DNA from: a virus
Virus record (IMG/VR): IMGVR_UViG_3300020053_000033
Coordinates: 1 to 34,467 of that record
Length of the DNA stretch: 34,467 bases
Strand: one strand, 5' to 3'
Below, one piece after another: positions 11,170 through 17,900 of the stretch. Every line of letters starts with the position of its first letter. The first letter of the stretch is position 1. Position numbers and translations under genes: made by a program. The notes below the pieces were generated by a model. The model was not told where the DNA came from, did not search any database, and was given only the letters and a program-made list of their open reading frames with translations.

Positions 11170-11634
11170 CTAGTCCTTAGCCTTTGCAGCGCCTTTATTG
11201 GCACCTTCAGCATCCTTTTTCTTTTGCGCTTCCAGCGCGGCAGCATCTTCCTGAGCTTTCTTTTGAGCAGCTTCTTCATCGGCCTTCTTCTGAGCTAATG
11301 CCGCTGCTTCTTCATCAGCCTTTTTCTGAGCTAATGCCGCTGCTTCTTCATCAGCCTTTTTCTGAGCTAATGCCGCTGCTTCTTCATCAGCCTTTTTCTG
11401 AGCTAATGCTGCAGCTTCTTCATCAGCCTTTTTCTGAGCTAATGCCGCTGCTTCTTCATCAGCCTTTTTCTGAGCTAATGCCGCTGCTTCTTCATCAGCT
11501 GACGGAACAACCACAGCTTCAAGCTTTAACAGCTGTTCGGCTTCTTCTGCTGTCAGCTCAATGGGGTCGCCTAACCCATAAGAAGAGCCGTTGTGGTCAA
11601 GCCTTGGGCGGTTAACTTTGAACTTCAGATACAT
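11170..11634 (-). CDS. Repeat protein in the Mu gp35 position
   Basis: 154 residues from ATG 11634 (MYLKFKVNRPRLDHNGSSYG), chosen for AGGAG upstream; an in-frame upstream start at 11658 lies in a hairpin. The first ~45 residues form a small domain (GDPIELTAEEAEQLLKLEAVV) followed by six tandem 12-residue units of KKADEEAAALAQ and a degenerate tail ending GANKGAAKAKD. The repeats should form a long charged helix resembling the TolA domain II type. The gene sits directly after the major capsid gene, where Mu has gp35. A capsid-surface or connector accessory role is plausible but unproven. Confidence 0.75.
   Translation of the reverse strand: MYLKFKVNRPRLDHNGSSYGLGDPIELTAEEAEQLLKLEAVVVPSADEEAAALAQKKADEEAAALAQKKADEEAAALAQKKADEEAAALAQKKADEEAAALAQKKADEEAAALAQKKADEEAAQKKAQEDAAALEAQKKKDAEGANKGAAKAKD
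11270..11498 (-). repeat. 36-bp in-frame tandem repeat array
   Basis: GCTTCTTCATC (plus-strand view) recurs at 11270, 11306, 11342, 11378, 11414, 11450 and 11486, a strict 36-bp period with six full units and a partial one. Units are nearly identical; the clearest differences are single silent changes at both ends and one altered unit near 11409-11413. The period equals 12 codons, so copy-number change keeps the reading frame. Confidence 0.95.
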
Positions 11635-11648
11635 TTTTTTCTCCTGCA

Positions 11649-11668
11649 GGTGGCCCATTCAGGCCACC
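11649..11668 (-). other. Stem-loop between capsid and repeat-protein genes
   Basis: On the minus strand GGTGGCC-TGAATG-GGCCACC is a perfect 7-bp stem with a 6-base loop, in the 60-base spacer after the capsid stop. It ends five bases before the AGGAG that serves the next gene. No T-run follows. It may protect the capsid message 3' end or lower expression of the downstream genes relative to capsid. Confidence 0.5.
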
Positions 11669-14177: not shown

Positions 14178-14258
14178 GGTTGCATGTCATCCTCGGCCAC
14201 AGAGTGAAAAGTCAAAAACGGGTTTGTGACCATCAGAATGCAGAATCGGGGCGGCAAT

Positions 14259-14280
14259 GTAATTTGAACGCGGACAAAAT
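14259..14280 (-). promoter_or_regulatory. Dyad element, late-operon copy 1 (candidate Mor-type activator site)
   Basis: A 22-bp segment identical to one at 22494-22515. Its core TTTGAACGCGGACAAA has dyad symmetry (TTTG..CGCG..CAAA; 14 of 20 positions symmetric in the 20-bp version), as expected for a dimeric DNA-binding protein. It lies 82 bases upstream of the protease start on the leftward transcript. No clear sigma70 -35/-10 pair accompanies it, which fits an activator-dependent promoter. Confidence 0.7.
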
Positions 14281-14288
14281 ATGCGGGG

Positions 14289-14305
14289 ATGCCTAAAACA
14301 GGCAT
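14289..14305. other. Short inverted repeat in the G-I spacer
   Basis: ATGCCT-AAAAC-AGGCAT, a 6-bp perfect stem with a 5-base loop, lies between the terminator (14363-14395) and the dyad element (14259-14280). No T-run follows in the leftward direction. It may be a weak second terminator or part of the promoter's upstream region; nothing more can be said. Confidence 0.4.
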
Positions 14306-14362
14306 TTATAAACGTTTACAAGGGGGTTAAAGGGGTTAACCAAAGCAAGGTTATAGCCCAGA

Positions 14363-14395
14363 CCTCTTAAAACGCGCTACAGCGCGTTTAAGAGG
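14363..14395 (-). terminator. Bidirectional rho-independent terminator after the gpG-like gene
   Basis: The arms CCTCTTAAAACGCGC and GCGCGTTTAAGAGG pair with a single bulged A around a TACA loop; the TAA stop of the gpG-like gene is inside the structure. In the leftward direction the GC core CGCGC-TGTA-GCGCG is followed by TTTT. The A/T-flanked symmetrical stem could work on both strands. It should end the lysis/terminase/portal transcript before the protease/capsid/tail operon. Confidence 0.8.
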
Positions 14396-14945
14396 ATGCG
14401 GAGTTCTTGAGCCATCTAACTGTTAAACGGCCAATATAACTGCTGTTATCGCTGCTCAAGCCCAACCATTGGCGTTTAGGCATATTAATTTCGTATGGGC
14501 CAACAGTGGCATCTTGGGCAAAGTTACTCTTTTTCCTTTTCACAAAACGGTTGCCTATGCTGCCGTCTTTGTTCTGCTGAAAGTAGACAGTAGTTTTACG
14601 GGCCTTTTGCTTGATCACTCCACCGAAGTTGTGAATGGCACCGTAAACATTATTGGTACCAAAGCTTAAACCAGAGTCATCAAACTGGCCCCGCAATGTG
14701 CTTTGCAAGTACGCCCTGAATGTAAGGACTTTGCCTTTGTTGCGATGCTTACGCTTTTGGTACCTGGCTGAAAGACGCTGCCAGGCTTTGCCATCAGGAT
14801 CAGTTTGGGTGCCAAAACGTGCGCGGGTGGTTCGCATCATGTATTCGTTTATTTGCGCAAACAACGGAGCTGGATGCTGTAGCCGGTGATTAATCTCTGC
14901 CAGCTTTGCTGCAACGTCTGATGTAATGTCTACCTTTGCTGCCAT
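14388..14945 (-). CDS. G: Phage virion morphogenesis protein (Mu gpG-like)
   Basis: 185 residues from ATG 14945. The family blocks of Phage_tail_S (PF05069, gpG) are clear: MRTTRARFGTQTDPDGKAWQRL near residues 37-58, VYGAIHNFGGVIKQ near the middle and INMPKRQWLGLSSDN near the C-terminus. Members act late in assembly, probably in tail completion or head-tail joining. It directly follows the MuF gene (8-base gap), as in Mu, and is the last gene before the terminator. The length is slightly above the family norm because of a Lys/Arg-rich middle (NRFVKRKKSNF). Confidence 0.92.
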   Translation of the reverse strand: MAAKVDITSDVAAKLAEINHRLQHPAPLFAQINEYMMRTTRARFGTQTDPDGKAWQRLSARYQKRKHRNKGKVLTFRAYLQSTLRGQFDDSGLSFGTNNVYGAIHNFGGVIKQKARKTTVYFQQNKDGSIGNRFVKRKKSNFAQDATVGPYEINMPKRQWLGLSSDNSSYIGRLTVRWLKNSASS

Positions 14946-14953
14946 GCTGGATC

Positions 14954-16189
14954 TTACTCCCTACGATAAACCCTAACACCAACGCGATAATCATCAATGT
15001 CGGTGTCCACTGTGGTGTTAATAGCTGACCAACCATCAGCACCCCATTCAAATACAGACAGTGCAGGAACGGTTTGGTCAGGCAGTTTGAAGCTTGCAAT
15101 GTAACGACGTTTTACCACTGCCTTTTGCTGATCTGCCATGTATTCCATACGCACCCATATTTCGTCTGGCTCCATCACAGCTTTGGCCATAACGCCCAGG
15201 AACTGGCCGCGACCATCTTTGTTGGCATTTATTTCGCCGCCTTTGCGGCTTACAAATAGATCCCGACCAATCACCAGGCTATCACCCAACACGTCTTTGA
15301 AAATAACGGATTGTTCCATCGTGGCCCCAAAGGGTTTTAAAAATGCTTCAGCATAAGCTGTGTCAGGTAAAGCTTTATCCAAAACAGCTGATGCTGGCAA
15401 AGCCCGTGGTTTTGGCAGTGCATCTTTAGGTTTGGTGTTAGGTAGGCCGTTTGCGCTCATTCCCTTTGGTGGCTCAGATAATTCAGGTGGTACTGCACTG
15501 TCTAACCGGCTGCGCCCTGGTGCATATTCAAAGCCCGGATCAATACCTTCCGGCACTTCAACAATGCGCGGGCCATCAGGGTGACGTTTGCCAATTTCAC
15601 GCTGCAGCATTTTAACTGCAGGCGCTTTGTCCGGGCCTGATTTACCTTCAGCTGCTAAATCTTCTTCGGTTAAACCTTCCACATAACACTGGCAGCCCCA
15701 GCCATTGGGAGGGTAATGAGTTTGCCACCACGGATCATCTGCAGACAAAATCAGGCCATCCCACTCAAGGTGTTCGTGGCGTGGATTTTCTACTGCGTCG
15801 CTATGTTTATAACGCCAGTAAGGCAAGGCTGCGGTTTGCGACTGCAGCTGCTCCTGACGCCCAGCGTTGTAGCTACTGAACAAGTTGGTTTCGTAGATAG
15901 TGCGGCTACGCCATTCACGGCCACCGTTATAGTCCCAGCCGTTCTCAGCCACTATGCGGTCAAAGTCTTTACGGAACTGCTCAAGGGTGCCACCGTCTGC
16001 GATCACCTTTTCGATAGCGGTGCGAAAGTCGGCCAGCATAGTGTCGCGTGTAACACCGGCTACCATAAAAGCCCAGTCATGTTCTGCGTTGTAAATATCA
16101 GTCCAATGGGTGGTTGGCATATTAAGCTTGCGCCGGAAGAACGCGATCTGCTGTTCAAAGGGCACAGAACCATAACTGGCTTCAGCCAT
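14954..16189 (-). CDS. F: MuF-like minor head protein with C-terminal PBECR-type nuclease domain
   Basis: 411 residues from ATG 16189 with GGAG upstream. Residues 20-170 are the Phage_Mu_F domain: helix LNMPTTHWTDIYNAEHDWAF, RTIYETNLFSSYNAGR (97-111), HLEWDGLILSADDPWW (140-155) and HYPPNGWGCQC (158-168). After a Pro-rich linker (228-268) residues about 270-395 form an alpha/beta domain (EQSVIFKDVLGDSLVIGRDLF; IWVRMEYMADQQKAVVKRRYI; SVFEWGADGW) resembling the phage Barnase-EndoU-ColicinE5/D-RelE nuclease group (PBECR) often fused to MuF proteins. MuF proteins sit inside the head near the portal and are thought to enter the cell with DNA, so the tail domain could be a delivered effector. It overlaps the portal gene by 8 bases. 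MuF assignment is firm; nuclease activity is inferred. Confidence 0.88.
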   Translation of the reverse strand: MAEASYGSVPFEQQIAFFRRKLNMPTTHWTDIYNAEHDWAFMVAGVTRDTMLADFRTAIEKVIADGGTLEQFRKDFDRIVAENGWDYNGGREWRSRTIYETNLFSSYNAGRQEQLQSQTAALPYWRYKHSDAVENPRHEHLEWDGLILSADDPWWQTHYPPNGWGCQCYVEGLTEEDLAAEGKSGPDKAPAVKMLQREIGKRHPDGPRIVEVPEGIDPGFEYAPGRSRLDSAVPPELSEPPKGMSANGLPNTKPKDALPKPRALPASAVLDKALPDTAYAEAFLKPFGATMEQSVIFKDVLGDSLVIGRDLFVSRKGGEINANKDGRGQFLGVMAKAVMEPDEIWVRMEYMADQQKAVVKRRYIASFKLPDQTVPALSVFEWGADGWSAINTTVDTDIDDYRVGVRVYRRE

Positions 16190-17900
16190 TGTTTTTAGCT
16201 CCCTGTTCGTCCAGTACTTCGGCCTGACCGGCTAATTTTGCAGTAGCTGTTGCAGTGGCCATAGCGTCGGCAAACTGCCCTAAGCTCAGGTTAGGGTAAA
16301 GAGCCATTAAACTGTCCTGCAGCTGCTCTAAGCTTTCAGCTTCATCAGCTAATTTCTTCACCTGGTTAATCCAGTCGCTGGTGGCCTTCTCTGAATTGGC
16401 ACGGGCCTGTTCAGCCATTTGAGCCGGGGCTGGCAGTGTTTCATCTGCAGCGGCAAAGTCGGCGATTCCAATTAGCTTGTCTATCTGCTCTGGTAATATG
16501 GCCGGGAAACCAGCCTCAATTAATGCCCTGGCGCGGCTGCGGTCTAATGTTTTCGCCTGCACCTGGGCAATAACATCCGACAGAGATTTAATCTGTGCGC
16601 CATTTAAAGCGGTTTGTTGCACCGAGGCAGCACCTGTTGCAGCTAATGGATCAATGGTTTCCGGTTGCGGTTCTGTCGCTGCAGGTAATTCCTGGCCTTC
16701 GATCACCTTGCCAGTGCCTGGCTCAGGTTCTTTCTCTACCCAGCCATCACCGTAGTTCTCCTGGATATATTCAAGCGTTGGTTTAAAGCCCAGACCAAAT
16801 ACTTTGGTGTCACGTTCTGCACGTTTGGCTGTGTCTTCATCTGGCGCCACCTGACGATAAACGCGAGGCGGTATCGCGCCAGGGAAATTCCATTCAGTTA
16901 GCCATTTGCCAACACTGCGGTTAAACGACTCACAGACTAAATCAGCATCGGCTTTAATCAGGTCGGTTCTTACATCACCCTGCAGCTCGTCATTTCCCAA
17001 CTTCCCTGGTGTGCCTTGTGTACTGGCAGTTTGCCCTAAGATCACTTTGGCTATGGCGTTATCCATAGTGCTGTACAACGACATATAGTCGGCGGTACCA
17101 GAGCGTGCCGCCTCTATCAGTTCTATTTGCATGCCCTCTGGCACGGCAATACCGCTGTCTGTTGCTATAGCGGCTAAAGCCTGCAGCAGTTTATTTATTT
17201 CGTCAGTTTTGGCATTCGGCCCATAAGTACCTTTTGCTGTGGGCTGACCAAACTTCTCTAAAAACAGCAGCCAGTACTTCAGGCCATTGCGCTTAAAGAA
17301 TGCTGGCCAGTAAAGCCAATGCCCTAAGCCCATTCCGTAGGGTTCGTCATCATGATCAGAGCCGGTACTGAAGTGCCAAAACTTATTGTCAGGCAGTAAC
17401 ATGCCTTTTGGCTCCGCCTGGGTTTTCATACGCAAACGGCCCATACCATCAAAACCAAAACGGCGACGGTCCCGCACTTTAAGATCAGCAAGCGCTATGG
17501 TGTTACCATCTGTTGCATACAGGGCTTCAGATACTGCAAAGCCGTAATACACGCCATACAGCATTTTGTCTGTCACGCGGTCCCAACCCACATTGTCGAG
17601 CTGTTCTTTCATGTAATCGGCGGCCATCTTATCGGCTTTGCTTTTGCCGCCAGCTTCGACTATCCAGTCTTTACCTATCACCGCCAGGCGGCGCTGAGCA
17701 AAGCAGGCAGATACTTGATCGTCACGCAGTACTTCGGCATAGATTTTTAAATCACCACCACGGGCCTTTAATACCGAGTCTGTTGGGGCAGCAATACTCA
17801 AAGGGTCGAGATAACCACGGGTAACGTCTTTGCCATCACCGGTAGTGGCCACTTCGGTCATTTCTGGTATCACCGCTTTTACTTTTTTCTCTTTGGCCAT
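16182..17900 (-). CDS. Portal protein, DUF935 (Mu gp29-like)
   Basis: 572 residues; ATG 17900 overlaps the terminase stop (TAATG) with AGAGGG upstream. DUF935 (PF06074) blocks are visible: DDQVSACFAQRRLAVIGKDW near residues 55-75, NKFWHFSTGSDHDDEPYGMG, RNGLKYWLLFLEKFGQPTAK and ILGQTASTQGTPGKLG. Twelve copies form the ring at one capsid vertex through which DNA is packed and ejected. The long C-terminal region (from about residue 390) is Ala/Glu/Gln-rich and helical, typical of the barrel/crown part. Order terminase-portal-MuF matches Mu. Confidence 0.95.
   Translation of the reverse strand: MAKEKKVKAVIPEMTEVATTGDGKDVTRGYLDPLSIAAPTDSVLKARGGDLKIYAEVLRDDQVSACFAQRRLAVIGKDWIVEAGGKSKADKMAADYMKEQLDNVGWDRVTDKMLYGVYYGFAVSEALYATDGNTIALADLKVRDRRRFGFDGMGRLRMKTQAEPKGMLLPDNKFWHFSTGSDHDDEPYGMGLGHWLYWPAFFKRNGLKYWLLFLEKFGQPTAKGTYGPNAKTDEINKLLQALAAIATDSGIAVPEGMQIELIEAARSGTADYMSLYSTMDNAIAKVILGQTASTQGTPGKLGNDELQGDVRTDLIKADADLVCESFNRSVGKWLTEWNFPGAIPPRVYRQVAPDEDTAKRAERDTKVFGLGFKPTLEYIQENYGDGWVEKEPEPGTGKVIEGQELPAATEPQPETIDPLAATGAASVQQTALNGAQIKSLSDVIAQVQAKTLDRSRARALIEAGFPAILPEQIDKLIGIADFAAADETLPAPAQMAEQARANSEKATSDWINQVKKLADEAESLEQLQDSLMALYPNLSLGQFADAMATATATAKLAGQAEVLDEQGAKNNG

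Follow-up and report, generated by a model that had tools for sequence, protein, structure and literature searches.

We analysed the F gene of a 34.5-kb IMG/VR virus record (IMGVR_UViG_3300020053_000033; 34,467 nucleotides, referred to here as the window), which encodes a MuF minor head protein with a C-terminal PBECR2 domain, together with the corresponding loci of related phages. The comparison shows that an RNA gap, i.e. a spacer encoding a small structured RNA between F and the following gene G, and the active site of the C-terminal domain are kept or lost together, the pairing being supported statistically; the window, as judged from its sequence, has lost both. This favours, with a probability of roughly 0.55, a model according to which the domain is a virion-carried colicin-D/RelE-like RNase, putatively a tRNase, neutralised by a cis-encoded RNA, the window holding a decayed member. 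The PBECR-on-MuF fusion was described in 2017 by Iyer et al. as predicted phage-BECR RNases (PMC5512222), and what the window contains is probably this known fusion in a decayed form. The coupled RNA gene is the element that is new here, no report of such a gene having been found in the open-access literature searched.

Scoring the PBECR2 loci with an F-G gap of ≥85 bp as a stand-in for the RNA, we found 73 loci with the gap and an intact site, 33 with neither and none mixed. Phages carrying the other domain type, found in relatives of phage Mu gp30, gave 43 loci with both, 31 with neither and none mixed, the active-site His being scored to include the HP[ED] type, in which it lies a few columns away. 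All 180 of 180 scorable loci are therefore concordant (116 both, 64 neither). On a tree built from the MuF part alone the RNA state changes 11 times; seven contrasts lie on supported branches, one of them being the pair of the window and its sister L002, and all seven agree with the state of the active site (sign test, p=0.0156). K324, R327 and T391 (numbering of the window's F) are all kept in every long-gap PBECR2 relative, and at least one of them is lost in every short-gap one. K321, K324, R327 and F393 are gone in most RNA-less lineages, and P341, E343, W345, Y363, W387, R402 and G404 stay at 100%.

The PBECR2 relatives form two classes by F-G spacing, ~92-126 bp (one 146, one 236) versus ≤14 bp, the window belonging to the second class with 8 bp. 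The long gap encodes a structured RNA on the strand opposite to F, consisting of two hairpins joined by a kissing (loop-loop) helix. In an alignment of 26 copies 93.8% of the cells are paired, 22 of 25 pairs show changes on both sides and all 6/6 pairs of the kissing helix are doubly covarying, resulting in a covariation score of 0.616 versus 0.225 in shuffles, with 0/500 shuffles as high. With 60 GU versus 9 AC cells, the structure belongs to the antisense strand; a sense-strand reading is ruled out by this asymmetry and by the placement of promoter and terminator. The RNA gene lies between two late genes, overlapping the G leader on the opposite strand, and its sequence suggests an antisense promoter of its own and a terminator-like 3' end: 44 of the 62 distinct gaps contain a -10-like box near the G start (≥5/6 matches), compared with an expected 6.7, and in 26 of the 62 the last hairpin is followed by T-runs. 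A covariance model built from aligned PBECR2-type copies (R1) finds copies only in the F-G gap and on the antisense strand, twice in tandem in L025 (4240-4321, 4347-4430), and no copy in the window, in site-lost lineages or in phages without the C-terminal domain. A second RNA class of the same architecture was recognised by eye in L002, L003, L007, L012 and L058, and comparison of the window with L002, the MuF parts of which are 93% identical, reveals a clean deletion of the RNA gene in the window. The PBECR2-type gaps have no Rfam match, and small immunity open reading frames (ORFs) in the F-G gap, considered as an alternative content, are not consistent among relatives. L034 (3254-3535, - strand) has an additional 93-aa antisense ORF in an enlarged F-G gap, with the RNA element retained.

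In the window, F corresponds exactly to the ORF at 14954-16189 on the - strand (411 aa), its start overlapping the 3' end of the portal gene. The sequence-only reading of this DNA had proposed a MuF head protein joined through a Pro-rich linker to a PBECR-like domain with no obvious immunity gene beside it, and our profile searches bear this out. Pfam assigns residues 54-170 to Phage_Mu_F (PF04233; E 9e-15, 55.8 bits against a cut-off of 29.6), an assignment in line with the neighbouring Mu-type portal, and residues 282-409 to PBECR2 (PF18810; E 1.5e-25, 90.2 bits against a curated cut-off of 27.1) over positions 1-120 of the 120-position profile. The PHROGs category of F is 'minor head protein and DNA pilot', and the Pro-rich linker is seen in the sequence at about residues 231-265. 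No immunity-like protein gene adjoins F and no small immunity ORF lies directly downstream, the next gene after the 8-bp spacer being gpG. The features are, in window coordinates:

14954..16189, - strand: F, MuF minor head protein with C-terminal PBECR2, 411 aa (ORF, Pfam, PHROGs)
15680..16030, - strand: Phage_Mu_F domain, residues 54-170 (PF04233, E 9e-15)
15407..15514, - strand: Pro-rich linker, about residues 226-261; relatives lacking the C-terminal domain end at about residue 232 (sequence)
14963..15346, - strand: PBECR2 domain, residues 282-409 (PF18810, E 1.5e-25; AlphaFold2 model, predicted local distance difference test (pLDDT) 94.7)
15209..15229, - strand: residues 321-327, basic helix motif, putative active site; N at K321, K324 and R327 kept
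15011..15025, - strand: residues 389-393, AINTT in the window versus GxTxF in relatives; T391N at the putative catalytic Thr
15110..15112, - strand: residue 360, K in the window, R in ~95% of RNA-bearing relatives
14946..14953: 8-bp F-G junction, site of the antisense small-RNA gene in relatives (93 bp in sister L002), deleted in the window
14388..14945, - strand: G, virion morphogenesis / tail completion protein (PF05069; phrog_26)
16182..17900, - strand: Mu-type portal, directly upstream of F (PF06074, E 2.3e-101)

An AlphaFold2 model calculated from an input of 54 related C-terminal domains gives a confident alpha/beta fold (pLDDT 94.7) for the last ~128 residues, with N-terminal helices followed by a four-stranded meander, matching the alpha/beta domain of about 125 residues that had been predicted. 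EspG3 and unrelated PDB entries matched this model weakly and were judged not meaningful. An intact catalytic site is not supported for the modelled domain: at columns ≥93% conserved among 39 distinct relatives with an F-G gap, the window departs by K321N, R360K, G389A, T391N and F393T, K321 and T391 being invariant in these 39 RNA-bearing relatives, and the structural core (P341, E343, W345, Y363, W387, R402, G404) is untouched. The published description of the BECR active site includes a helix His/Arg and a C-terminal Thr/Ser (PMC5512222); R327, which aligns with the Arg of diverse PBECR2 members, fits the former, and the latter is replaced in the window by Asn at position 391. Judged by these residues, the window's domain is a diverged PBECR2 member that is probably inactive; the profile match establishes membership, not activity.

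The gp30-type phages point in the same direction with a different RNA. The helix His (typically LLHxDSxKH) is retained wherever the gap measures ≥100 bp and has been lost wherever it measures ≤32 bp, as in Mu and JBD67; phage Mu is without both the RNA gap and the active site, and its gp30 domain has been judged inactive in print (PMC5512222). Nine of the gp30-type gaps, read antisense, score above the Rfam gathering threshold for tRNA (RF00005, 31.8-46 bits), the acceptor, D and T arms being present and the anticodon arm being replaced by a variable hairpin. ARAGORN reports no tRNA in these gaps because of the abnormal anticodon arm. In E. coli Mu-like prophages, e.g. of HH35 and O157:H7, NCBI PGAP labels this RNA, which lies antisense in the F-gpG spacer, as 'tRNA-OTHER'. 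Of 5,426 complete genomes of E. coli, 226 match a 601-bp query over that region, most of the query being present in 222; the tRNA label is not on every matching genome, and among the matches listed no such RNA occurs in genomes with a true Mu-type F. In a third, smaller group, which has the HP[ED] His motif, the RNA is longer and resembles a cloverleaf, and its two loops covary as well (CTCTC/GAGAG, CTACC/GGTAG, CTGTC/GACAG). The model of the gp30-type domain finds as best structure matches colicin D (1v74, Z 5.5; 1tfo, Z 5.4), BrnT, RelE and CdiA-CT RNases, of which colicin D and CdiA-CT Ec3006 cleave tRNAs according to the family descriptions.

Copies of the tRNA mimic also exist apart from F. 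One or two in tandem end satellite-like E. coli elements with Mor activator, SSB, and RepA helicase or primase-type genes, no MuF being nearby; examples are L393:2996-3191 (E. coli STEC17-183, NZ_CP075652.1 2246443-2246638), L395 and L396. One orphan mimic is 86% identical to a Mu-like prophage mimic, the orphans are annotated as tRNA-Tyr or tRNA-OTHER, and most of the orphan query stretch is present in 13 E. coli genomes. In this they are comparable to orphan immunity genes.

The C-terminal domain is accessory. Relatives 65-68% identical to the window in the MuF part have an F that ends near residue 232, with gpG following directly (L109, L111-L113, L145), and the same MuF scaffold bears Mu-gp30-type, zincin-like or JAB-like domains in others, i.e. 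C-terminal domains are swapped or absent on a shared scaffold as described for MuF polymorphic toxins. As the truncated relatives assemble heads, the role of the domain is not essential. Some MuF phages lacking the domain have other genes inserted after F, namely a Dam-like methylase (L127) and a large AAA/RecN-like ATPase ORF (L131).

These observations support a model according to which Mu-like transposable phages would equip MuF proteins with interchangeable C-terminal BECR-fold RNase domains, PBECR2 in one group and a different PBECR type in the relatives of Mu gp30. A functional domain would be encoded together with the small structured RNA gene, antisense between F and G and with its own promoter, and this RNA, either a tRNA mimic without a normal anticodon arm or a smaller copy of the kissing-loop elbow of tRNA, would bind and neutralise the RNase, protecting the producing cell and lysogens. 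A tRNA-type nuclease beside such a tRNA mimic is what an enzyme and its decoy would look like, and loss of the RNA upon decay of the enzyme fits an antidote role. The RNase may travel in the virion and enter the next host with the DNA, injection of F being an assumption carried over by analogy from the MuF literature. After decay of the active site the RNA would no longer be under selection and would disappear, or the order may be reversed; the window would represent the decayed case, its RNA gene deleted, its active-site residues replaced and its fold retained, perhaps to serve structurally or in binding RNA. The wider proposal, that the heads of Mu-like phages contain tRNase toxins with RNA as immunity, namely antisense tRNA or tRNA-elbow mimics encoded next to the head gene, that these mimics come and go together with the active site and that orphan antidotes are collected by satellites, we regard as evenly balanced.

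Several points weigh against this model. Gap length is a proxy for the RNA, the loci are redundant, long branches lead to some rows, and the scoring omitted those of the 371 loci, 112 in number, in which gpG was not detectable. The residues of the PBECR2 site were fixed after the gaps had been seen, though the basic helix and the C-terminal Thr follow the published description. Model R1 recovers only the commoner RNA class, missing all five loci of the second, and 9 of 31 loci lacking the C-terminal domain also have F-G gaps, of 64-930 bp and with unassigned content. A Z of ~5.5 for the gp30-type domain is modest, and PDB structure searches with the window's PBECR2 model gave no BECR match. 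Active-site residues also partly remain in the window: K324 and R327 are kept, T391 is not, and Asn at position 391 is present in other PBECR2 branches, so that a residual, reduced rather than zero, activity of the window's copy is possible.

This bears on what the domain does in the window phage itself. That a one-time RNase has here become a non-catalytic virion part, for instance one that binds RNA or DNA or a structural piece of the capsid, is fairly probable; this reading is compatible with the decayed-RNase model and may describe the window's present state. The changed active-site residues, the core kept in the window and several lineages, the missing RNA and the published judgement on Mu gp30 (PMC5512222) agree with it, while the retention of K324, R327 and R402 and the heads assembled without any such domain argue against it. 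The sequence-only reading had instead suggested a toxin or an effector cutting RNA or DNA, restrained if necessary by gpG or by confinement in the capsid. Its family assignment stands with the strong PBECR2 match and the kept R327 and R402, but an active effector is doubtful for the window's copy, in which five conserved positions are changed (K321N, T391N, G389A, F393T, R360K) and the RNA is lost, and we consider such an active toxin improbable. gpG as a dedicated inhibitor is ruled out because relatives without the domain keep gpG just as those with it do.

The RNA could also be read differently. As a substrate or regulatory element, cut or sensed by the PBECR domain to control late-gene expression in a RegB-like manner, it would be useless once the enzyme is dead, so coupled loss is expected here as well; the position between two late genes, overlapping the G leader on the opposite strand, and the proposal that PBECR domains target phage transcripts (PMC5512222) are in keeping with this. 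An antisense promoter and terminator-like 3' end of its own, tRNA mimicry without a normal anticodon arm and orphan copies in MuF-less elements speak against it, and it is unlikely. A general regulator of Mu-like late operons, linked to the active site through shared ancestry, is already disfavoured and very improbable: both states are indeed shared among related phages, but there are at least seven independent concordant contrasts in two domain families, including sisters with 93%-identical MuF (window/L002), and the RNA is mostly absent in relatives without the C-terminal domain.

Compared with known systems, the window shares with the PBECR2 RNases on MuF (PMC5512222) the match over the full profile, the MuF fusion and the helix Arg, and differs from them at K321, R360, G389, T391 and F393; an RNA partner is not mentioned in the part of that paper considered here. 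MuF polymorphic toxins were described by Jamet et al. 2017 (PMC5576092) as having variable, optional C-terminal domains, as occurring in temperate phages and as being proposed to be delivered with the DNA. The window and its relatives have the same shared N-terminus with variable, optional C-terminal domains, but those toxins are tied to small downstream immunity ORFs, where the relatives here have a structured antisense RNA and the window nothing. Type III toxin-antitoxin systems (ToxIN, CptIN, TenpIN) resemble the relatives in combining an RNase with a cis-encoded structured RNA, in kissing or pseudoknot contacts and in occasional tandem copies (L025); a cognate structured RNA is present at the locus in relatives and absent from the window. 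The phage loci differ from them in a toxin fold of BECR type instead of ToxN-like, in an RNA that is antisense, downstream and has its own promoter, and in a protein that belongs to the virion structure. The tRNases colicin D and CdiA-CT have the BECR fold, 1v74 and 6cp8 being structural matches of the gp30-type domain, but are neutralised by proteins and delivered by colicin or contact-dependent inhibition, not by a phage head.

The gene complement of the window comprises a Mu-type portal, terminase, gpG and an rve-type transposase-like protein with its AAA partner, and its nearest isolated phages include B3-like Pseudomonas phages, e.g. JBD25. A stretch of ~210 bp (14178-14387) separates gpG from the protease gene and contains no gene; a gap is likewise conserved in relatives at this position, which in phage Mu is that of the strong gyrase site. 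A 36-bp tandem repeat (6.4 copies, 96% match, 11270-11499) within the ORF 11170-11658(-), near the major head gene, encodes the protein repeat KADEEAAALAQK.

For the phage-borne MuF nucleases of Proteobacteria, neither had an immunity factor been identified nor a target proven, and a conserved RNA partner that disappears whenever the active site does is a strong lead to both. This coupled loss could account for classical phage Mu having an inactive domain, and the vague idea of an injected toxin becomes directly testable as binding and cleavage. If true, the model would add structural proteins of virions to the toxins that RNA-based antitoxins control and would explain the 'tRNA-OTHER' genes of E. 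coli prophages.
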